Part shown: piece by piece, positions 1,831 through 23,583 of the stretch
Position numbering within the stretch: the first letter of the stretch is position 1
Layout of the letters: each line of letters opens with the position of its first letter
Source of the DNA: Clostridia bacterium
GTDB lineage: Bacteria; Bacillota; Clostridia; Christensenellales; Aristaeellaceae
Assembly: GCA_017428385.1 (NCBI GenBank)
Contig: JAFRQX010000045.1
Span: 1-64,000, forward strand
Direction of reading: 5' to 3'
Length of the DNA: 64,000 nucleotides
Notes under the pieces: model-generated
The model's database searches: none
Told to the model about the DNA's origin: nothing
Seen by the model: the letters and a program-made list of their open reading frames with translations, nothing else
Position numbers and translations under genes: made by a program

Positions 1831-1913
1831 ATCTTTTGAGGTGATGACATTTGTCGTAGCACGATGGCACTCTAAGGTCGCCACACAGAAAAAACAGAAA
1901 AAATTTTAGAAAA

Positions 1914-1955
1914 CTAGCACTCACCTCTTGACAGTGCTAACAAAAGTACTACAAT
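1914..1955 (+). promoter_or_regulatory. CIRCE operator overlapping the hsp20 sigma-A promoter
   Basis: CTAGCACTC at 1914-1922, a 9-base spacer, then CAGTGCTAA at 1932-1940. This matches the HrcA operator consensus TTAGCACTC-N9-GAGTGCTAA at 16 of 18 positions with the exact spacer. A TTGACA (1928-1933) and TACAAT (1950-1955) 16 bases apart form the promoter, so the right arm of the operator lies just behind the -35 box and HrcA binding would block transcription. Confidence 0.9.
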
Positions 1956-2060
1956 ATGTGTCGAACAAAGGAACAGCGATCCAATAAACCACCGTCCCAA
2001 TGCTCAAAATCAACATGGCGTGGCTGCCACAGCAGCCCAACACCCGAGGAGGTAAGAGTT

Positions 2061-2498
2061 ATGTTGATACCGAGTATTATTGCTGAGAATTTGTTCGATG
2101 ACTGGTTCGATTTCCCGTCTTTCCGGAACATGGATCGTCAGCTCTACGGCAGGCACTTTGCCCGTGAGATGAAGACCGATGTGCATGAGCATGATGACCA
2201 TTACGAAGTGGACATTGACCTGCCCGGCTTCCAGAAGGATCAGATTCAGTTGAGTCTTGAGAATGGTTATCTGACCATCACGGCCACGAAAGAGGTCGAG
2301 AAGGATAAGACGAAGAAGGGCAAGACCATACGTCAGGAGCGTTACGACGGAACGCTGCAGCGGAGCTTCTATGTGGGCGATGCGCTTACGGAGGAAGATA
2401 TCACCGCAAAGCTGGAGCATGGTGTGCTGAGCTTGAACATCCCGAAGAAAAACGAGAAAAAGCTTCCTGAAAAGAAGCTGATCGCGATTGAAGGATAA
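2061..2498 (+). CDS. hsp20: Small heat-shock protein, Hsp20/alpha-crystallin family
   Basis: A 145-residue ATP-independent chaperone that holds unfolding proteins. The alpha-crystallin domain covers about residues 38-140. It begins KTDVHEHDDHYEVDIDLPGF, contains ENGYLTITATKE, and has the conserved A-x-x-x-x-GVL form as AKLEHGVLSLNIPK. The N-terminal part is rich in Phe and Asp-Trp, as usual for the family. The ATG at 2061 follows AGGAGGT by 7 bases; an upstream in-frame ATG at 1956 lies at the promoter -10 and is rejected. The roughly 100-base leader and the CIRCE element point to heat induction through HrcA. hrcA itself is not in the window. Confidence 0.95.
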   Translation: MLIPSIIAENLFDDWFDFPSFRNMDRQLYGRHFAREMKTDVHEHDDHYEVDIDLPGFQKDQIQLSLENGYLTITATKEVEKDKTKKGKTIRQERYDGTLQRSFYVGDALTEEDITAKLEHGVLSLNIPKKNEKKLPEKKLIAIEG

Positions 2499-2534
2499 TG
2501 GGCTCTCATCCCAAGCAAGCTAAACCAACCGCAT

Positions 2535-2567
2535 GGCTCATCATGGAAACATGGTGAGCCCTTTTTC
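2535..2567 (+). terminator. Terminator of hsp20
   Basis: GGCTCATCATG and CATGGTGAGCC form an 11-bp stem with one G-T wobble around a GAAA tetraloop, followed by CTTTTTCT. Confidence 0.85.
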
Positions 2568-2622
2568 TATAAAAGAAAGCGTATTAATTATATAATGCAA
2601 ATATTGTTACTGATTGATGCTT

Positions 2623-3570
2623 CTATTTCCTTATAATATTCTCGATCTTAGTAATGGGTCTGTTCTCCAGCCTTTCCAGATCCGCATCTATTGTTGCTTT
2701 CAGAGCTTTTACTTCCTCGTTCGCCGTTTTTTCATCGTATAACAATGCAATCAAATTTCCCTGTCGCTCAATCAGACTGGCTTTAACCAAAGCTGTTGGC
2801 TCAGCGATTTGCTCAACCTTTTTCGTCAGGTCCTGTGCTCTTTGTTCTGCCTCCTTCTTAAGCATTTCTGTCTCTGCTTTTATTTCAGCCAACCGCGCCT
2901 TTATGCGGTCAGTCCTATAAATCACGTCTGGATAGGCTTCAGCAAAGCGGCGATAAAAAACAGATTTATCTGTGAGCGTACGTCTGATCTCCAAACTTAT
3001 TTCCTCTGTATTGTCTGCCTGACTACACTCAACGCTCGTTTTCACCAGTTTCAGGATAAAGTGAGTCATGGCATAGTCCGAAGCACAGACCGCGGCCAGC
3101 ACTCCAACTGCAATTTCTTTTGTCAGCAGAGCAATCCTATCCAGTATTGTAAAAAGTACCGGATTAAAGAAATGGACGATCGCAACACCACCCAATCCAA
3201 ACAGAATCAAATTTCCTATCCATACCCGACCATGCAGATTCATGGGCTTTTGACTATAATCCCACCAACGGGCATGAAAGCGTTTCTCCAAATACCAGCT
3301 TGTAAAATACTCTACTCCACCGCACAATAGAAATGATATGACAAAGGTTGTACCAAAGGCTTCTTCAAAGGGAGTCAAGAGGTGTACCGCAACGGTGATC
3401 AGTACTGCCCCGGTTCCATAGATAGGGCAGATCGGCCCTGTAAGGAATCCACGGTTGATAAAACGGTGATACTGGATATATTTTAGACAAACCTCAATAC
3501 ACCATCCCGTAAGAGAATAAATGAAAAACAGAAGAACAAGATCTATCAGCATTGTGCCTGTCGCATTCAT
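2623..3570 (-). CDS. Putative ABC-transporter type IV (CmpB-like) membrane protein
   Basis: A 315-residue protein with about five hydrophobic segments in the first 180 residues and a long charged, coiled-coil-like tail (roughly 200-300, rich in Glu, Lys and Ala). The segment GFLTGPICPIYGTGAV near residue 42 is the signature of the PF06541 family, annotated as putative ABC-transporter type IV or CmpB; its biochemical role is not established. The ATG at 3570 follows AAGGAGGAG. It ends with TAG, the only TAG stop among the intact genes checked here. A repeated promoter cassette ends about 65 bases upstream of the start. Confidence 0.7.
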   Translation of the reverse strand: MNATGTMLIDLVLLFFIYSLTGWCIEVCLKYIQYHRFINRGFLTGPICPIYGTGAVLITVAVHLLTPFEEAFGTTFVISFLLCGGVEYFTSWYLEKRFHARWWDYSQKPMNLHGRVWIGNLILFGLGGVAIVHFFNPVLFTILDRIALLTKEIAVGVLAAVCASDYAMTHFILKLVKTSVECSQADNTEEISLEIRRTLTDKSVFYRRFAEAYPDVIYRTDRIKARLAEIKAETEMLKKEAEQRAQDLTKKVEQIAEPTALVKASLIERQGNLIALLYDEKTANEEVKALKATIDADLERLENRPITKIENIIRK

Positions 3571-3595
3571 GATGGCGCTCCTCCTTAACCGGAAG

Positions 3596-3949
3596 TCAAG
3601 GTTGTCTGTTTATGCCTAACAATGGTTCCCGGTTCCAATGATAGCATATCCTGGTGAATTTTTCAGAAAATTTTCGCCGCTGGCATTCATCAACAGAAGA
3701 ATGCCAGCGGCTTTCCGTCATGAAAACATGACGTCCAGCTCGCTGCTGCTGGGTGAGCTTGTTGCCCAGCATGGACAGCTTGGCTTCCGTGCCCGCGATG
3801 GTCTTTTCATAGTTTTCAACGCCAGCCCCGGCCAGACGGAAGGTGGGCTCGGCTTCCTTGATCTGCTGGTTGATGGTGCGCATATTGCGCGAGAAATTGC
3901 TGGAGTCCAGCGACAGCGCGACTACCAGTTCGCGCAGGGTTTCAGCCAT
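3596..3949 (-). pseudogene. Phage tail tape-measure protein, truncated N-terminus
   Basis: The first 70 or so residues (MAETLRELVVALSLDSSNFS...NQQIKEAEPTFRLAG...KLSMLGNKLTQQQ) match the start of TP901-type tail tape-measure proteins, which run to many hundreds of residues. After that the frame carries unrelated sequence and ends in a region occupied by the promoter cassette, so the remainder is lost. The start lies at 3949. No other phage gene is nearby. This is a stub of a decayed prophage. Confidence 0.7.
3635..3710 (-). promoter_or_regulatory. Repeated promoter cassette, copy 1
   Basis: Read on the minus strand: a 12-bp perfect hairpin (CCGCTGGCATTC family, arms 3677-3688 and 3699-3710), an A/T-rich link, then GATATGCTATCATTGG. 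The last block contains an extended -10 form, TGC-TATCAT. Copies 2 and 3 lie at 7547 and 10769. In each case the block sits 62-69 bases before the start codon of a minus-strand gene, here the CmpB-like gene at 3570. Confidence 0.6.
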
Positions 3950-4214
3950 AAAGTTTCACTTTGATTGCAGGAGATTCGGGAAAGATGGCAGAATACTGGT
4001 TAGGAACATCGGTTCGACAACTCGGGATCTGAAAAACCACTTAACTTTGAATTCAAAGAACTGTCGACAAATCAAAACTTCCTTTTGCAATTGACCTCTG
4101 AGGAATATATTTCCTTCTTTCCTTTTCAGAGAAAAGAAGTATAATGATTCAGCGGAATCGAAAGACCGTCCGGTTGGCCTTTTATTCTGATTCACACTCT
4201 TGAGAGGCAGCCTT

Positions 4215-5096
4215 ATGAATCGATTTTTTATTGACTCACTGAAGATGATGCGGGAAAATTACATCCGTGCCTTCGGGGGAAAATACGACACGGAGATGTG
4301 TCCAATCAAAGATGTGGAAGTGGACGAGCGGGACGCGGCGGGCATCGTGACTGCTTCTACGGGATTTCTTCGGGGGCTGACGATCGACGGCGTCAGCAGT
4401 CTGAAGAAAATCTACACAAATGACGTAAACGGAAAAACAGAGGAAATTCTTGATATTCGGGAGCGGGATGGAAGTGAACACGAATACAGGGATCTGGCGC
4501 TGACGAGATACCGCTGTTCCCTGATGACGGTTTTCGCGATGGAACAGCTGATGCGAAAAAAACCGAAAAACGTGGGATTCATCGGGACAGGCCGCACGAA
4601 CCTAGCGAACTGCATCGGAATCTGCGAGCGCTTCTCTCCCTTGGGAATCGTAATCCGCGGAAGCAAAAGGAACGTCGACAAGAACATCGGGGATTTCCTG
4701 CTGGTTAACGGAAAAACGAAAGTGGATGACACGGAGGATATGATTCATCTTAACGCCTGCGATACCGTGATTATCTGCACTTCCGCCACAAGGCGGGAGG
4801 AAATGATAAGCGCCAACCTTCTGATGGGCCCGGATTTGATCATCGTTCTGGATAGCGGGTATTACCTGGATGAATCCTTCCGGAAAACCCGGGATAATTA
4901 TTCGGACAGCCCGGAACAACTGGAAGCTCATTTCCGGGATGAATTTCCCTGGGATGAAAAAGACTATACCTTTAAAACACTGCTGGATAAACGGGACGCC
5001 AGAAAATGCACGGCCTACCTGTACGGCATCGGCCTGGCCGACGCCGTGGCGGGGGAGGAGATCACGAACCGCATTGAAAAATCTCACAGGAAATAA
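4215..5096 (+). CDS. Ornithine cyclodeaminase / mu-crystallin family-like protein
   Basis: A 293-residue protein with a Rossmann nucleotide loop, VGFIGTGRTNLANC, near residue 118, then strands typical of an NAD(P)-binding domain (DTVIICTSATRREE near residue 182, LIIVLDSGYY near 202). The layout resembles the ornithine cyclodeaminase/mu-crystallin family: an N-terminal substrate domain, then a GxGxxx dinucleotide domain. The substrate-binding residues of true ornithine cyclodeaminase are not clearly present, so the reaction is unknown. The ATG at 4215 follows GAGAGG by 7 bases; a TTG at 4200 is in frame but lacks such a site. Monocistronic, with a hairpin 200 bases downstream. Confidence 0.5.
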   Translation: MNRFFIDSLKMMRENYIRAFGGKYDTEMCPIKDVEVDERDAAGIVTASTGFLRGLTIDGVSSLKKIYTNDVNGKTEEILDIRERDGSEHEYRDLALTRYRCSLMTVFAMEQLMRKKPKNVGFIGTGRTNLANCIGICERFSPLGIVIRGSKRNVDKNIGDFLLVNGKTKVDDTEDMIHLNACDTVIICTSATRREEMISANLLMGPDLIIVLDSGYYLDESFRKTRDNYSDSPEQLEAHFRDEFPWDEKDYTFKTLLDKRDARKCTAYLYGIGLADAVAGEEITNRIEKSHRK

Positions 5097-5296
5097 AGGC
5101 ATCCTCTAGAACAAAAATTCTTCATCAAAAACAGGATGCGTCTCCGCATTCAGAGACCAAAATATTTCTCGGAATATAATCTTGTCCGAGAGTCGCCAAA
5201 GGGAATACATATGATCCTGTACCGTTCCCTTCCCTTTTTGAGATGAACGGTATGGATAAATCGGGGTAAATAATTGCCCTTCGAGTGTCATGTGAA

Positions 5297-5334
5297 AACC
5301 CGCAGAGCTTATCACAATCTGCTCTGCGGGTTTT
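5297..5334. terminator. Bidirectional terminator hairpin
   Basis: AAACCCGCAGAGC (5297-5309) pairs perfectly with GCTCTGCGGGTTT (5322-5334), A-rich before and T-rich after. It may end the gene at 4215-5096. The 190 bases between them hold no convincing ORF. Confidence 0.75.
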
Positions 5335-5363
5335 CGTCATCTTTGGGTTTAAGCAGCAATCAC

Positions 5364-5489
5364 TTATGGCGATGTATGTATTGACAAGAAGAATGTATAT
5401 AATGAAACCGTAAATGAATACAGGGGGCTAATCTTAGAACTCTTTACAATAGATATCTCTTCCTCTGTAAACTTTGAATCTCTAGCCAT
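5364..5489 (-). other. Short ORF beside transposon-end-like repeats, doubtful
   Basis: A 41-residue frame starting MARDSKFTEEEISIVK. That opening resembles the start of small HTH or transposase-subunit proteins, but the sequence soon becomes hydrophobic and stops. GAAAGGAAGG lies 15-24 bases upstream. It is probably the broken start of an insertion-sequence gene whose end repeats lie at 5534-5686. Confidence 0.2.
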
Positions 5490-5533
5490 TGTCAACTATC
5501 CTTCCTTTCGTTTGGTATATCACCTCCATCCTT

Positions 5534-5686
5534 TGTCCAGCAAGCATTCTGCATTGCTTTTCTTGTTAGTGTGCTATTTCCATTGTCCAGGTATGAGGAC
5601 TCTGTGTTAATAGTCTTGTCCATTTTTGAGGATTTCGGCTATTTTATCTGTCCACAAACCGGGATCGGGTTAAATTCATCTGTCCA
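5534..5686. repeat. TGTCCA array, transposon-end-like
   Basis: TGTCCA occurs at 5534, 5584, 5617, 5649 and 5681. The last four are 33, 32 and 32 bases apart. Two copies extend the match as TGTCCA-4 bases-TGAGGA. Regularly spaced repeats like these are known at the ends of IS21-type and Tn7-like elements, where they bind transposase. No intact transposase is present within several kilobases. Confidence 0.45.
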
Positions 5687-5719
5687 TTCTATGGGGAGTA
5701 TTTTACACTCCTGGCCCGT

Positions 5720-5762
5720 GAACACCCCCTGAACACCCCTGAACACCTTTTCATTGAACACC
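5720..5762. repeat. GAACACC short direct repeats
   Basis: GAACACC at 5720, 5731, 5741 and 5756, followed 40 bases later by the inverted form GGTGTGTTC at 5802. No function is seen. Confidence 0.5.
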
Positions 5763-5773
5763 TCCGAAAATAG

Positions 5774-5799
5774 AAAAAGCCTTTATTTTAAAGGCTTTT
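5774..5799. terminator. Hairpin terminator, A/T-flanked
   Basis: AAAAGCCTTTA and TAAAGGCTTTT form an 11-bp stem with a three-base loop. It works in either direction by composition. Confidence 0.65.
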
Positions 5800-5807
5800 C
5801 AGGTGTG

Positions 5808-6095
5808 TTCACGTCCACATTTCAGTTTGACAACTTGACCGGTAGCCCAGAGCACATCGTTCACATCGACGGGGCAAACGAAGGAAACGTCTCCCCAGTG
5901 GGGAGTGTCGAAGACAAGTGACTTGAGTTTGTTGGCGTGAAAGGAAGAATGAAGCCTGCTCCAAAGGATTCAGGCAACCATTGAACGAACGGAACACTGG
6001 TTCGAGTCCACTGGACATAGATTTGAGTTCGGACGATGACAGAACGGACTGTCCCTGCAGTCACGTCCTCGAGTCCGGTACAGACCACACGGAAT
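5808..6095 (+). other. Gene-free stretch ending at a terminator, possible RNA
   Basis: About 290 bases with no believable ORF. It contains a D-arm-like piece (GGTAGCCCAGAGC near 5841), a CTCCCCAGTGGGGAG hairpin near 5894 and two T-loop-like pieces (GGTTCGAGTCC near 6000, CCTCGAGTCCGG near 6067). None folds as a complete tRNA, because partner stems do not pair. A strong plus-strand terminator follows at 6096, so a small RNA is possible. Confidence 0.25.
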
Positions 6096-6125
6096 AAGGA
6101 TCACCTTCGTGGTGATCCTTTTTTC
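6096..6125 (+). terminator. Strong rho-independent terminator
   Basis: AAGGATCACC-TTCGT-GGTGATCCTT followed by a run of T. The same GGATCACC/GGTGATCC stem recurs at 8731-8757 in the opposite direction. Confidence 0.8.
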
Positions 6126-6142
6126 GTATCCTTGAAGGAAGC

Positions 6143-6667
6143 TCATTGTTTTTCATGGGTAATCATACATTCCATCTGCAGATCATAAGGCTCTGCCTCA
6201 GCAAGGGAAGGAACAGGGTCGGAACTGAGGCGGAACCCCAGGGCGGAGTAGAAGTTTATTGTTTCTTCAGAAGAGCAGCAGGATGCATACAAAGCATGAG
6301 CTCCCCTCTTCAGGGCTTCCTGTCTGGCGGCTTCAAACAAGGCCCTGCCGATTCCATGACGGCGGTAATCCCTGGAAACATGGAAGCTGTCAATGATGAG
6401 CCGGCCTTTGTTCAGCCTGGGAATCAGCATGATTTCGCCAACCACACGATTTCCTTCATAAGCGCAATATGTCACGTACCGCCCGCTGAGAATCTCTTCC
6501 GCTTTTTCGATAAGACGCACAGCATCCCAATCCTCAGTGAAGGGATTGTAAACCAGTGTCAGATTCCCATCCTGCAGGCGATACACATTTTTGACTTCCT
6601 GATACCGCTGAAAGCCTTTCAGCGAATCCCGGGTGAAGTTATTACTGTCAACAAGCTTTATTTCCAA
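6143..6667 (-). CDS. GNAT N-acetyltransferase
   Basis: A GNAT-fold enzyme of 174 residues. The acetyl-CoA loop is DYRRHGIGRALFEAARQEA in the second half, followed by the C-terminal NFYSALGF strand typical of the fold. The longest frame starts at 6739 inside the preceding gene. The TTG at 6667 is better placed: GAAAGG lies 8 bases before it, and it begins 32 bases after the stop of the DUF5131 gene, so the two form an operon. The substrate is unknown. The start codon is the least certain point. Confidence 0.8.
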   Translation of the reverse strand: MEIKLVDSNNFTRDSLKGFQRYQEVKNVYRLQDGNLTLVYNPFTEDWDAVRLIEKAEEILSGRYVTYCAYEGNRVVGEIMLIPRLNKGRLIIDSFHVSRDYRRHGIGRALFEAARQEALKRGAHALYASCCSSEETINFYSALGFRLSSDPVPSLAEAEPYDLQMECMITHEKQ

Positions 6668-6698
6668 AGTATTATGCCTTTCATCCTTAACGCTGTTG

Positions 6699-7478
6699 TC
6701 ATAAAGTATCCTGCGCCTCAATATCCGGTATAAACCCATCCACGATTTTGTAGTCGATCCCCGCTTTGCGGGCCTGGGACGTCTGGAAGCGGCGGGGGAC
6801 CCGGTGCAGTTTGCCGTCTTTGATAAAATACGCTCCTGTCTGGTGAAACTGAAAAGGGACGCCTTTGTTCATACACTGGCGGCGGACGTCCAGCACCCAT
6901 TCGTAATCAAGCGGCCGCACGTTGATGCCCGATTCGCCGGAGCAGGCTACCTCGCAGATACTGCCGTTAAGATACTTCTCAAGGTTGATTGGGCCGAGCA
7001 TGGGGCCGAGGATAATCGTTTTGTACCGGATCGGGAGCTCCGCGAAGATCGGCAGCCGGAAATCCGCCCGGTCCTGGTTTTCACAGGTGCAGCCTACGAT
7101 CACATTACCATAGCCGTCGCCCCAGTCAGGGGGCATACATTCCACAAAGCGTTCGATGCGCTTTGTGAAAAAGTAAAACATACAATCGCTGCGGGCTTTG
7201 ATCATTTTCCAGCATTCATCACGCCATTCATCCGCGTCCTTCAGCAGAAAATCCGAGGTAAAGCAGGTCATGACGACAGAACCGGACGCGATCTTCGGCG
7301 TTCCGTCCCGCTTTGTTTTGACCGGCAGATTGAAATTCTGTGTTTTGCGGCATTGCTCTGACGATACCGTGCTGCCGTATGCTTCATCCTGCCGGTAAAC
7401 ATAGCAGTAACGGCAGCCTTCGGAATACTTCGTGCAGCCATGCCAGGGGTTCCAGCTTGCGTATTTCTGTTCGCTCAT
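6699..7478 (-). CDS. DUF5131 (phage Gp37/Gp68-like) protein
   Basis: A 259-residue protein starting with the family signature WNPWHGCTKYSEGCRYCYV (residues 9-27). Its three cysteines have spacing close to that of a radical-SAM-like site. Also conserved are the TKR and GESG turns (TKRIERF, ACSGESGIN). The family is phage-derived and common in chromosomes; its activity has not been shown. Its start is about 70 bases downstream of copy 2 of the repeated promoter cassette. A GNAT gene follows 32 bases after its stop and is probably cotranscribed. Confidence 0.85.
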   Translation of the reverse strand: MSEQKYASWNPWHGCTKYSEGCRYCYVYRQDEAYGSTVSSEQCRKTQNFNLPVKTKRDGTPKIASGSVVMTCFTSDFLLKDADEWRDECWKMIKARSDCMFYFFTKRIERFVECMPPDWGDGYGNVIVGCTCENQDRADFRLPIFAELPIRYKTIILGPMLGPINLEKYLNGSICEVACSGESGINVRPLDYEWVLDVRRQCMNKGVPFQFHQTGAYFIKDGKLHRVPRRFQTSQARKAGIDYKIVDGFIPDIEAQDTL

Positions 7479-7546
7479 TTTTTTGACACTTATAATCCTG
7501 CAATTCTGAGTTGTTGCTTGTCATTTATCCGGTATTGGTACCTGAC

Positions 7547-7623
7547 CCAATCATAGCATATCTTCCTGCTTTTTGGCAGGGAATTTCTGCCGCCGGCATA
7601 CATCAACAGAAGAATGCCAGAGG
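7547..7623 (-). promoter_or_regulatory. Repeated promoter cassette, copy 2
   Basis: On the minus strand: an imperfect version of the copy 1 hairpin (GCCTCTGGCATT…GTATGCCGGCGGC, with the same TTCTGTTGAT loop), an A/T-rich link, then GATATGCTATGATTGG. The extended -10 is TGC-TATGAT, 69 bases before the DUF5131 start. Confidence 0.6.
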
Positions 7624-7739
7624 CTTTTCATTGCGGCGAATGATCCCTTTGCTTGCTTTACGCACAGGCCGCAGGAATGCTATAATCACCCCATCAGGAG
7701 AATCTTTGGTGCATATATGATTTATAAAGGAGAAGACAC

Positions 7740-8606
7740 ATGCAATTCAAATATGAGTTCAAATGGATATCTGTTCTGCTGTCGGTCCTGGTTCTGTGTG
7801 TTCCGGTTCTGCCTTCCGCCGCTGAAACTGCCGTTCCGGAATATGATCCCGGCAGCCTGAACTATGAACTGGTCTGGGCAGACGAGTTTGATACTGACGG
7901 ACTGCCGGATCCTGCCCGCTGGGCCTATAACACCGGGGGAAACGGCTGGGGAAACGGTGAACAGCAATACTATATGGCCGAAGGAAACGCGGCCATTGAA
8001 AACGGAATCCTGACCATTGAACTGAGGGAAGAAAAAAGCAGCTATTATACTTCCGCCCGGATGATTACCAAAAACCTCGGGGACTGGTTGTACGGCAAAA
8101 TTGAGGTCCGCGCGAAACTGCCTTCCGGCAGGGGAACCTGGCCCGCCATCTGGATGCTGCCGACGGACCGGGTTTACGGAGACTGGCCGGCTTCCGGAGA
8201 GATCGACATTATGGAACACGTGGGATATGATCCCGACGTGGTTGTACAGAGCGTCCACACAAAGAAAACGAACGGAGGTTCAGCAGTCAGCAAGAGCACG
8301 CTCGTTCCCGGAGCGAGGGAAGAATTCCATGTTTACGGACTGGAATGGCTGCCGGACCGGCTCATCTTTACCATCGACGGGGAACAGACGCATGTATATG
8401 AAAAGCCGGAGGCGGCTGAAGACGAAAAGGTCTCAAACGTGTGGCCGTTTGACCAGCGCATGCATCTGCTGATGAATCTTGCCTGGGGCGGGACCTGGGG
8501 CGGCCGCGAAGGGACAGACAAGAAATGCCTTCCGGCAAAGCTTGAAGTGGACTATGTCCGCGTATACCAGAGCCCAGAGATTATGGCACTGACCGGGCAG
8601 GAATGA
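7740..8606 (+). CDS. Secreted GH16 endo-beta-1,3(4)-glucanase
   Basis: A 288-residue enzyme that hydrolyses internal bonds in laminarin- or lichenan-type beta-glucans outside the cell. Residues 1-28 are a signal peptide ending SAA. The GH16 catalytic box GEIDIMEHVG has its nucleophile Glu154, Asp156 and acid/base Glu159 in the canonical E-x-D-x-x-E order. Aromatic substrate-cleft segments (WGNGEQQYY, WPAIWMLP, MNLAWGG) are present, and the chain ends DYVRVYQ as in the family. No carbohydrate-binding module is attached. AAAGGAGA precedes the ATG, and a TATAAT lies at 7681-7686. Monocistronic. Confidence 0.92.
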   Translation: MQFKYEFKWISVLLSVLVLCVPVLPSAAETAVPEYDPGSLNYELVWADEFDTDGLPDPARWAYNTGGNGWGNGEQQYYMAEGNAAIENGILTIELREEKSSYYTSARMITKNLGDWLYGKIEVRAKLPSGRGTWPAIWMLPTDRVYGDWPASGEIDIMEHVGYDPDVVVQSVHTKKTNGGSAVSKSTLVPGAREEFHVYGLEWLPDRLIFTIDGEQTHVYEKPEAAEDEKVSNVWPFDQRMHLLMNLAWGGTWGGREGTDKKCLPAKLEVDYVRVYQSPEIMALTGQE

Positions 8607-8670
8607 AGAGGCGAACCTTATGCCGGACTGGAATCGAATGAAAACCAGGCTTTTATTTGCGGGAAAGGCT

Positions 8671-8708
8671 CGCTAGCGTGACAGGGGGACGGTTCTTCTG
8701 TCATGCGC
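8671..8708. repeat. GGGGACGGTTCT-family inverted repeat
   Basis: GCGTGACAG...CTGTCATGCGC around GGGGGACGGTTCTT. This is one member of a family also found at 17668, 19519, 21418 and 27448. Confidence 0.6.
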
Positions 8709-8727
8709 CTGAACCGCGGCTTCAGGG

Positions 8728-8757
8728 AAAAAAGGATCACCTTTACGGTGATCCTTT
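8728..8757 (-). terminator. Terminator overlapping a stop codon
   Basis: On the minus strand AAAGGATCACC-GTAAA-GGTGATCC runs into six T. The TAA stop of the methyltransferase is in the loop, so the last three codons (Gly-Ser-Pro) are encoded by the left arm. Confidence 0.85.
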
Positions 8758-9510
8758 CTTCGTGAGATAAATTGTTTTGTCAGTTGAGCAGTCATCCTTG
8801 TCCAGCGGGTATAGGTCGCCGGGGGAGATGGGACCTTTTCTTGTGGCCACGGTTTCACTGCCGGTGCAGGTAAAACCAACCGATTCACAAAACCGGACGA
8901 AGTCTTCGTATGACGCCCAGATCTTTTCCTGCTTCGCCAGAGCTGCCTGTGTTTTCGAACCCTGGTCAAAGAACATTTCAATCACGGCCAGTCTGCCGCC
9001 GGGCTTCAGGCACCGGCAGGCTTCTCTGATCAGCCCGGGGTAATTCTCCACATTGTTCAGCAGGTTTCCCGTGAAAAGATTCACGGATTCATCTTTGAAG
9101 GGGAGCCCTTTATCCAGGTCCACGTCAAAGATATAGAAATTGTCTTTTTTGCAGGCGTCCGCGTGCGCCTTGATAATGGCGGGGCAGGCGTCTGTAATGA
9201 TCAGGCAGTCGTCATCCTTTAAGGTGTCCAGGAACGGTGCGAAATACCCGGAGGGGCCGCTGGCCAGGTCCACCTTGATACCGCCGGACGCGGAAACAAA
9301 TTCAACAAAATGCCGGAGGGCGTCGTTTGAATTCATTCTCCGCTTCTGGCCGGAATATCTTCTTTTCATCATCAGGTTGACCTGGTTGCCGGTCAGATAC
9401 TCGTCCAGCGCCTTTGACCAGGCGGGACGGGTGGCTTCGTCTGTCACAAAGTGGAAGACGTTTCCCTCCCGGACATAATCCATATCTTCTTTGAGCAGTT
9501 CTCGAATCAT
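8743..9510 (-). CDS. Class I SAM-dependent methyltransferase
   Basis: A 255-residue protein with a Rossmann methyltransferase core in the middle. Motif I is VDLASGPSGYF (about residues 79-89), an acidic strand LIITDAC follows, and motif III/post-motif is CLKPGGRLAVIE. An N-terminal extension of about 75 residues (MIRELLKEDMDYV...) precedes the core and probably recognises the substrate. The substrate is unknown. The final residues lie in the terminator hairpin. It is separated from the next upstream gene by about 50 bases. Confidence 0.8.
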   Translation of the reverse strand: MIRELLKEDMDYVREGNVFHFVTDEATRPAWSKALDEYLTGNQVNLMMKRRYSGQKRRMNSNDALRHFVEFVSASGGIKVDLASGPSGYFAPFLDTLKDDDCLIITDACPAIIKAHADACKKDNFYIFDVDLDKGLPFKDESVNLFTGNLLNNVENYPGLIREACRCLKPGGRLAVIEMFFDQGSKTQAALAKQEKIWASYEDFVRFCESVGFTCTGSETVATRKGPISPGDLYPLDKDDCSTDKTIYLTKKGSP

Positions 9511-9558
9511 TCTCCGGTTTCCCCTGTTGTCAGTGAATCATCTTTATCATTATTGAGT

Positions 9559-10707
9559 TTAAAACGCACCTAACGCAGATAATGCAACCTGCAGAATGGA
9601 ACCCTGTCCGTAGGTACCAGCGTCAGAAGAACAGGAAGCGATGAAATAGATCCTGCCAAACTGCTCGGATTCAATGATGACGTTCTCCGTGGTATAGGTA
9701 CCGTCTCTTCCGGAATGACCGTATGCATGCTTTTGATAAGGATACAGGCCGCATCCGTAATCCATTTCAAAAAGGGTCATTTCTTCAAAAGAACTGCGGG
9801 ACGTCAGCCGGCAGGAAACCAGGGCTTTATCAAAGGCCCAGAGATCCGCGACGCATGTGTGGACACCGCCGGCTCCGCGTTCATAATTCGGCGCCATGGT
9901 ATAACCGTTCTCGTCGACCATTCCGTCTGCAAGAAGATCCCCGAAGACCGTGGGAACGCTGGTCTCATTGCCAACAATCAAGGCTGTTGTATGTTCCATT
10001 CCACACGGATCGAAAATGTGTTCCTGCAGATAGTCACCCAGCGGTATCCCGGATACCTGCTCGACGATCATACCCAGAAGATGATAATTGGTATTACTGT
10101 ATTCCTGCTGAGTGCCCGGCGTAAATTCCAGCGGGGCGGCATAAAGATTATCCAGGAATTCCTCGTCTGATACTTCATCCCGGAAGGAACGGCGTATGAA
10201 TGGCTCCAGATCCTCATCGCTGACATTGACCCAGAAGTCCCTGGGATTGTTGACATAGTCGACGATTCCCGACTGCATATGCAGCAGGTGCCGTATTGTA
10301 ATTGCTTTGCCGGTTTCATATTCCGGGAAGAAGCTGCTGACCGGATCCTCCAGCGTGAGCTGCCCTGCCTCAATCAGCTGAAAAACAGCTACAGCCGTAA
10401 ATACTTTTGAACAGGAACCAATGTTGTAGGTCGTATATTGGTCTACTGGCAGACCTTCTCTTGTCTTAACCTTAGGCCCGCCGAAAAGGATGATTTCATC
10501 GTCCGTTGCAAGCAGAACCGCTCCCCGATAGCTGTCGCTGTGAGCAGACTTCTCCACACGTTCAATGATCTTCTCATACCGTTCATCCGGATTGGCAAAG
10601 AAGTTGTCAGCATCTTCCCTTAAGTCCTGAAGGGCATACGCATTGCCTGTGATGAACAGAACGATCACTGCCAGGAAAGGCAGCAGCTTCAACGAGAACT
10701 TTTTCAT
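9559..10707 (-). CDS. Secreted serine hydrolase, beta-lactamase/PBP class C fold
   Basis: A 382-residue exported protein with a signal peptide at residues 1-25 (…GNAYA). The active-site set of the class C beta-lactamase/D-Ala-D-Ala peptidase fold is visible: S98-C-S-K101, a Y-S-N motif in QQEYSNTNYHLLG, and H-S-G in YGHSGRDG. In this broad family members may be peptidases, esterases or beta-lactamases, so the substrate cannot be named. AAAGGAGAGA precedes the ATG, and copy 3 of the repeated promoter cassette ends 62 bases upstream. Confidence 0.87.
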   Translation of the reverse strand: MKKFSLKLLPFLAVIVLFITGNAYALQDLREDADNFFANPDERYEKIIERVEKSAHSDSYRGAVLLATDDEIILFGGPKVKTREGLPVDQYTTYNIGSCSKVFTAVAVFQLIEAGQLTLEDPVSSFFPEYETGKAITIRHLLHMQSGIVDYVNNPRDFWVNVSDEDLEPFIRRSFRDEVSDEEFLDNLYAAPLEFTPGTQQEYSNTNYHLLGMIVEQVSGIPLGDYLQEHIFDPCGMEHTTALIVGNETSVPTVFGDLLADGMVDENGYTMAPNYERGAGGVHTCVADLWAFDKALVSCRLTSRSSFEEMTLFEMDYGCGLYPYQKHAYGHSGRDGTYTTENVIIESEQFGRIYFIASCSSDAGTYGQGSILQVALSALGAF

Positions 10708-10768
10708 TTGAATCTCTCCTTTTTTGATGAGATCCTATATGCCTGTCAGCTTGTATCGTATTCCAGCT

Positions 10769-10818
10769 CCAATGATAGCATATCATTGGCAAATTTGGCA
10801 GTTTATTTTGCTGCCGGC
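10769..10818 (-). promoter_or_regulatory. Repeated promoter cassette, copy 3 (shortened)
   Basis: On the minus strand: CTTGCCGGCAGCAAAATAAA, then the block GATATGCTATCATTGG 62 bases before the hydrolase start. A TTGCCA 18 bases before TATCAT could serve as the -35. The hairpin of copies 1 and 2 is reduced to its right half. Confidence 0.6.
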
Positions 10819-10826
10819 AAGAATAA

Positions 10827-10849
10827 AACCCGCCCCTGGCGGGCGGGTT
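10827..10849 (-). terminator. Terminator of the 10909-11139 gene
   Basis: AACCCGCC and GGCGGGTT pair around a 7-base loop, followed on the minus strand by TTTATTC. Confidence 0.7.
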
Positions 10850-10908
10850 GTTGTGTTTGCCTGACAGAACAATCGTTCATGTCTGACATCGATAAAGTGA
10901 GCCCCGGC

Positions 10909-11139
10909 TTATTTTTCTTTGCGGAACAGATCAATAAGCACCAGGACCAGGCCAAGTACTGTGATCAGGGTGGTGATGACAAACAGAGGCATTAATTTCA
11001 GATCAACTACATTTGACCAGAATTTTCCAAGATTGGTATACCAGGAGTCGGGGAGATTGTTTCCCGCGATACAAATAATCGCTACAGACCAAATAGTGCC
11101 TAACAGTGCCAAAAACCCGCCTGCCCATGTTTTCTTCAT
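10909..11139 (-). CDS. Small two-span membrane protein
   Basis: A 76-residue protein with one hydrophobic helix at residues 6-27 (FLALLGTIWSVAIICIAG) and a second at 50-70 (LFVITTLITVLGLVLVLID). A Trp/Asn-rich loop lies between them and a basic DLFRKEK tail follows. I chose the ATG at 11139 because AAGGAGAA lies about 7 bases upstream; a longer frame reaching 11220 has no such site. I do not recognise the family. Its own terminator lies 60 bases downstream, so it is monocistronic. Confidence 0.7.
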   Translation of the reverse strand: MKKTWAGGFLALLGTIWSVAIICIAGNNLPDSWYTNLGKFWSNVVDLKLMPLFVITTLITVLGLVLVLIDLFRKEK

Positions 11140-11261
11140 ACAATCATTCTCCTTTGTTGAATTCAGATTTGCCGGCAGAAAAGAAATGTTGGAAAGCTTC
11201 TGTGTGTATCTGGAGAGCATATCTTCCGGCTCTTTGATTCCCCTCCTGCACCTGGCCCGCT

Positions 11262-23477: not shown

Positions 23478-23479
23478 AA

Positions 23480-23583
23480 ATGAAATATCGCTGTCGCGAT
23501 GTGAAATATTGATCTTCGATCAATATGAAATAAATCAGCTTCGCTGATTTGTGAAATATCCGCCTTACGGCGAATGTGATGAT
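23480..23583 (+). repeat. Hairpin string, locus 1 (GAAATAT type)
   Basis: Four short palindromes joined by tGAAATA(T): TCGC-TGTC-GCGA, TTGATC-TTC-GATCAA, ATCAGC-TTC-GCTGAT and a degenerate CCGCC-TTA-CGGCG, ending GTGATGATTACT. Confidence 0.85.

Follow-up and report, generated by a model that had tools for sequence, protein, structure and literature searches.

The window, i.e., the whole stretch of 64,000 nt of a Clostridia bacterium that was analysed, carries on its minus strand the genes of a CmpB-type membrane protein, a DUF5131 protein, and a secreted serine hydrolase, and the block GATATGCTATSATTGG lies in front of each of them. The block is the core of a non-coding module of about 120 nt, and the three modules of the window are referred to as copies 1, 2, and 3. 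The features at the locus are as follows, where R1 scores come from a model whose training set included window copies 1, 2, and 3.

1845-5886, no strand: segment judged to be transferred, with hsp20, CmpB, copy 1, and a 293-aa ORF; about 99% identical in three other species
2623-3570, minus: CmpB-type membrane protein gene, downstream of copy 1 (PF06541, E=5.5e-46)
3606-3712, minus: copy 1, whole module (hairpin, A/T tract, promoter, leader; R1 90 bits, E=2.1e-25 in its own genome)
3635-3650, minus: copy 1, core block (TG at 3646-3645, -10 TATCAT at 3643-3638)
3676-3711, minus: copy 1, hairpin GCCGCTGGCATTC-TTCTGTTGAT-GAATGCCAGCGGC (sequence; dyad covariation across copies)
3740-3949, minus: phage tape-measure gene, truncated N-terminus, fused to the 5' end of copy 1 (phrog_1533, E=4e-12, residues 1-70)
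5849-5874, plus: tRNA-Val(CAC) fragment (tRNA nt 21-46; sequence), right end of the segment judged to be transferred
6699-7478, minus: DUF5131 gene, downstream of copy 2 (PF07505, E=3.1e-37; orthologues without the module exist)
7521-7625, minus: copy 2, whole module (R1 80 bits; leave-out profile E=1.2e-22)
7547-7562, minus: copy 2, core block, exact GATATGCTATSATTGG match
7589-7624, minus: copy 2, hairpin with the loop TTCTGTTGAT as in copy 1 (sequence)
9559-10707, minus: secreted serine hydrolase gene (beta-lactamase fold), downstream of copy 3 (PF00144, E=9.9e-46)
10737-10825, minus: copy 3, module with the hairpin 3' arm alone (GCCGGCAGC; R1 44 bits; leave-out profile E=4.7e-10)
10769-10784, minus: copy 3, core block, exact GATATGCTATSATTGG match

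Tape-measure pieces similar to that at 3740-3949 turn up in many genomes of the genus, several of them at contig ends.

Resemblance of the three copies in the window

A preliminary description of this DNA had reported the block three times on the minus strand, 62-69 nt ahead of the start codons of these three genes, together with a hairpin of identical loop in copies 1 and 2. All three blocks match GATATGCTATSATTGG exactly, the offsets were measured as 65, 69, and 62 nt for copies 1, 2, and 3 (gaps to the ATG of 64, 68, and 61 nt), the gene identities agree with those given, and the loop TTCTGTTGAT was found in both hairpins. The genome-wide block search that it had proposed was performed, and the 3.32-Mb genome has no further GATATGCTATSATTGG site with up to two mismatches. 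In the window itself, with up to three mismatches allowed, there were four matches versus 0.82 expected from shuffled sequences, the fourth being copy 3 on the opposite strand.

Copies 1 and 2 have 81 nt in common at 81% identity, and copy 3, whose hairpin is reduced to the 3' arm, shares about 52 nt at 77%. A leave-out profile, which was trained on other species with the window sequence excluded, recovered copy 1 with E=6e-28 and copies 2 and 3 at the values listed above, while the best forward-type match in the window after the three copies reached only E=0.44. Thus, the resemblance exceeds both a -10 box and chance. Recent copying of the window blocks from one another is not borne out, because they are mutually only 68-71% alike across 82 nt, and local tandem copying was rejected as their origin on these values. 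They are therefore old family members assembled together and not fresh local duplicates. Copy 3 also has a perfect inverted repeat over its -10 (CCAATGATA-tgc-TATCATTGG, 10769-10789), a possible operator that is absent from the other copies.

Architecture and distribution of the module

Read in the direction of the promoter, the module consists of a palindrome GTCATGTTTTCATGAC in some copies, the hairpin GCCGCTGGCATTC/GAATGCCAGCGGC, the stretch AAAATTTTCTGCCAAAAA, the core GATATGyTAwnATTGG, and a leader with a small GC-rich hairpin. The 13-bp upstream hairpin is whole in copies 1 and 2, and its 5' arm is absent from several good copies, copy 3 among them. Pairing in the dyad reaches 89% across copies, compared with 20-53% in slid controls, and dyad position 6/31 covaries (T-A, C-G, A-T). 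The promoter elements are a weak CTGCCA-like -35 and an extended -10 of the form TRTGnTAnnAT, and the columns invariant among 24 copies are ATATGnTAnnATT, which is the extended -10, and, within the A/T tract, the two A's of columns 54-55. The extended -10 consensus, the orientation, and the position of the module fit a predicted promoter role, and on these signals the module would be an active promoter of the sigma-A type.

Several other identities were considered and rejected. The modules matched no family in an Rfam search, so that they do not represent a known RNA family, and a role of the upstream hairpin as terminator of the upstream gene was rejected because, in the direction of the promoter, the hairpin lacks a T-run behind it. 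In some copies, an open frame ending in GWTSCFHDGxPLAFFC and a stop codon runs across hairpin and palindrome, but a reading of these as the end of a protein gene is not supported, as other copies have the frame shifted, truncated, or fused to other sequence. The exact hairpin patterns had no match in viral contigs, where the -10 pattern had a single match, inside a coding gene, and blastn of the module against phage and plasmid records found nothing; a phage or plasmid origin was rejected on these searches.

The search for the module covered 200 related genomes and then 45 genomes of the genus, many of which are fragmentary metagenome-assembled genomes (MAGs), and yielded 58-60 copies from about 20 species. 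The module is largely limited to one genus of rumen Clostridia, which we take to belong to the Aristaeellaceae; outside this genus it is rare: a sister genus has a few copies, and a further genus of the family has one. The named records that match the hairpin exactly are MAGs from rumen or gut labelled "Clostridia bacterium", "Clostridiales bacterium", or "Eubacterium sp.". Members scoring below about 30 bits could be ordinary promoters of the genus with a similar extended -10.

Genes behind the module and their promoters

A same-strand ORF lies behind 55 of the 60 copies in the fetched loci. Under a stricter test, which demanded an ORF with a preceding ribosome site and a start within 300 nt, 37 of 46 copies had such an ORF on the promoter side, whereas the opposite side gave 14 and randomly chosen positions within these loci gave 12. 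The preliminary description had named copies at random distances or inside genes as evidence against its reading and had stressed a constant distance to unrelated genes. The placement of the copies upstream of genes in the same direction stands, but the constancy of the distance does not, for over the whole family the gap between module and gene varies between 26 and 285 nt. The 55 downstream proteins fall into 45 sequence clusters, with families as different as GNAT, FMN reductase, metallo-beta-lactamase, methyltransferase, TehB, AzlC, HIT, HAD, DUF1349, DUF4256, DUF554, GDSL, MerR, BrnT, S58 peptidase, and pyridoxamine oxidase. No coherent regulon emerges from these functions; the downstream genes are a mixed pool of small accessory genes rather than a pathway.

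The ancestry of the module can be compared with that of the gene behind it in two cases. In seven other species, DUF5131 orthologues 84-92% identical to the window gene have unrelated upstream DNA; the likeness to the window leader stops about 40 nt before the ATG, and the module in front of this gene is common only to the window and genome G035. The AzlC genes of genomes G022 and G016 are 89% identical and their modules only 68% alike, the G022 module being 95% identical to the modules of a DUF4256 and a DUF1349 gene and the G016 module 94% identical to that of a GNAT gene. This discordance between promoter and gene at AzlC and DUF5131 supports a mobile, exchangeable promoter, and the earlier proposal of a mobile promoter before unrelated genes has been borne out. 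On these alignments, the module has been exchanged independently of the genes behind it. Some shared modules could nevertheless have been inherited together with the gene instead of exchanged; among close copies, CmpB was found only together with its module.

tRNA-Val(CAC)-bounded DNA and the spread of the module

The window segment 1845-5886, which contains hsp20, CmpB, copy 1, the tape-measure fragment, and the 293-aa ORF, is approximately 99% identical in genomes G044 and G001, and in G022 from 2608 onward. The corresponding argS identities are 86% (G044), 92% (G001), and 97% (G022), indicating recent transfer with respect to G044 and G001, and the excess over argS is small in G022. In both G044 and G022, the segment is part of an island of about 6.9 kb that extends from a complete tRNA-Val(CAC) to a direct repeat of its nt 21-76 (L057 3275-3350 and 10070-10125; L055 2283-2358 and 9194-9249), and in the window it terminates in tRNA-Val nt 21-46. 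An integrase of the island's own was sought by Pfam among the L057 ORFs, which gave DUF308 and ABC1 kinase, with hsp20, CmpB, and ORF293 as the remaining genes and no integrase gene. A divergent tRNA-Val(CAC) gene or fragment lies within 250 nt upstream of 14 of 58 modules and one in the same direction of none, compared with a random expectation of 0.59 on average and 4 at most in 1000 trials. By sequence comparison, some module copies travel between species inside tRNA-Val(CAC)-bounded DNA. Gene-sized gains and losses without clean ends also occur, e.g., G035 lacks window 9526-11230, which holds the serine hydrolase gene, copy 3, and a small membrane ORF, and the flanking genes adjoin there.

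In G044, the intact tRNA-Val(CAC) is preceded by an array (L057 2999-3350) in which its first 22 nt occur five times in tandem, 54-55 nt apart and with two kinds of spacers of 30-31 nt, and shorter arrays of this kind were seen in L061, L138, L157, and L158. A tRNA-Val piece with an insert of about 120 nt in the variable loop (window 5849-6009; L134 5894-6071, 6911-7102, and 10784-10944) recurs in the genus, both inside single genomes and from one genome to another.

We consider it likely that the block forms the core of a promoter module, dispersed and about 120 nt long, that serves one small accessory gene per site and is exchanged independently, partly via tRNA-Val-bounded DNA. At each site the module would drive a single small accessory gene. 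Arriving accessory genes may recombine beside existing modules, with the common module serving as homology, or may alternatively come with the module already in place inside tRNA-Val-targeted islands; either way, the newcomer would be expressed at once thanks to the module. Recombination between modules, in which homologous recombination presumably plays a role, would swap gene partners. No dedicated recombinase lies beside the modules, and therefore the module would be a passenger of gene turnover and not self-mobile. Copy 3 is a point against this explanation, as it is the most divergent copy and half of its hairpin is missing.

Chance likeness among promoters of an extended -10 type common in the genus is hardly credible as a substitute for an exchanged module. 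TATGCTATnAT does occur in unrelated promoters, e.g., before tRNA-Val (L157) and before DUF5131 (G040), but the whole genome has only three matching sites, and the leave-out profile finds likeness down to E=6e-28 across about 97 nt, with hairpin and leader in common. Convergence is thus refuted for copies 1 and 2 and is very unlikely for copy 3 (E=5e-10). A regulon, in which a single regulator binds dyad and -10 region and the control region is retained by selection at jointly needed genes, also seems improbable to us. The 13-bp dyad is conserved and covaries at 6/31, which would be expected of a protein site or of a hairpin in RNA or DNA, and the spacing is similar among the window copies. However, the downstream functions are unrelated (about 45 clusters) and differ between species, the 5' arm is missing in several good copies, including copy 3, DUF5131 is intact without the module in seven species, and the likeness extends over 120 nt including the leader, which is beyond the needs of a binding site.

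The tRNA-Val association allows the module to be read differently, as one end of a non-autonomous integrative cassette that targets tRNA-Val(CAC), with the integrase acting in trans and the tRNA 5' half, the divergent promoter, and the cargo gene as the moving unit. This is possible but somewhat unlikely. It accords with the 14 of 58 copies that adjoin divergent tRNA-Val pieces, with the 6.9-kb islands of G044 and G022 between a complete tRNA-Val and its repeated nt 21-76, and with the array in G044, where the first 22 nt of the tRNA stand five times in tandem before the gene. On the other hand, the tRNA remnant is absent beside 44 of the 58 copies, the module boundaries vary, and the PF00589 integrases in five genomes all lie away from the modules, the nearest about 15-19 kb off in G044. 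Going further, we speculate that the module may be the end of an integron-like gene-capture system in which tRNA-Val(CAC) replaces attC/attI as the landing site; the tRNA 5' half of the unit would repair the target, the divergent promoter would switch on the captured gene, a recombinase would act in trans, and the tandem 22-nt tRNA repeats would be insertion scars, all of which we regard as rather unlikely.

Compared with known systems, the independently exchanged module is closest to mobile promoters and to horizontal regulatory transfer, whose testable features it shows. Mobile promoters and promoter propagation (Matus-Garcia et al. 2012; van Passel et al. 2014), as far as the citing paper PMC8049555 describes them, are short repeated promoter sequences before non-homologous genes that spread within and between genomes without a recombinase of their own. 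The present family likewise puts similar non-coding upstream sequence before non-homologous genes (45 clusters among 55) and has spread beyond inheritance with the gene (AzlC and DUF5131); on that comparison, the features new to this family are its hairpin, its leader, its near-confinement to a single genus, and its link with tRNA-Val(CAC). Horizontal regulatory transfer with switched intergenic regions (Oren et al. 2014, as described in PMC5890482 and PMC9944727) resembles our case in that orthologues have non-homologous upstream regions (DUF5131, seven other species) or modules of other ancestry (AzlC), but in those descriptions alternative regions switch at the same gene, whereas here one family serves dozens of accessory genes.

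Other kinds of mobile DNA show partial likeness. Integron gene cassettes likewise line up small accessory genes that are single and unrelated (GNAT, methyltransferase, hydrolase, DUF) beside a folded DNA repeat, but the hairpins of the module contain GTTGATG and not the GTTRRRY core of attC, they lie before the gene and not at its 3' end, no PF00589 protein lies next to the modules in five genomes, and the module copies have 120 nt of promoter and leader in common. Constant ends and terminal inverted repeats, as in MITEs or transposons, were not found either, since the left boundaries vary, and membership of the module in a transposon or integron fails on the features tested. Direct repeats of the tRNA 3' part around a variable segment of about 6.9 kb are shared with tRNA-targeted genomic islands, but here the segment lacks an integrase, and tRNA 5' ends turn up repeatedly as well, both in tandem and next to the module.

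A gene that has just been acquired is often silent for want of a working promoter. An independently exchanged predicted promoter at sites of gene turnover could be a simple route for rumen Clostridia to express incoming genes without delay. Given dozens of copies, and orthologues that have or lack the module, it is directly measurable how gaining the promoter affects expression, and the tRNA-Val link is a concrete lead towards the machinery.

Some further elements were noted in the window. A Gut-1 RNA (RF01706) scores above gathering at 23478-23562 on the plus strand, and an 89-nt repeat (192-280 and 1186-1274, 81% identical) flanks a double-GNAT gene. Four dyad repeats of about 20 nt (CGTGTAnATTTACACGATT) lie at 1609-1720 with a spacing of 30-31 nt, and in L057 tRNA-Val is followed by repeats of a comparable kind (GTACGCA and GTGTACCCC); both sets are perhaps operators or recombinase arm sites.
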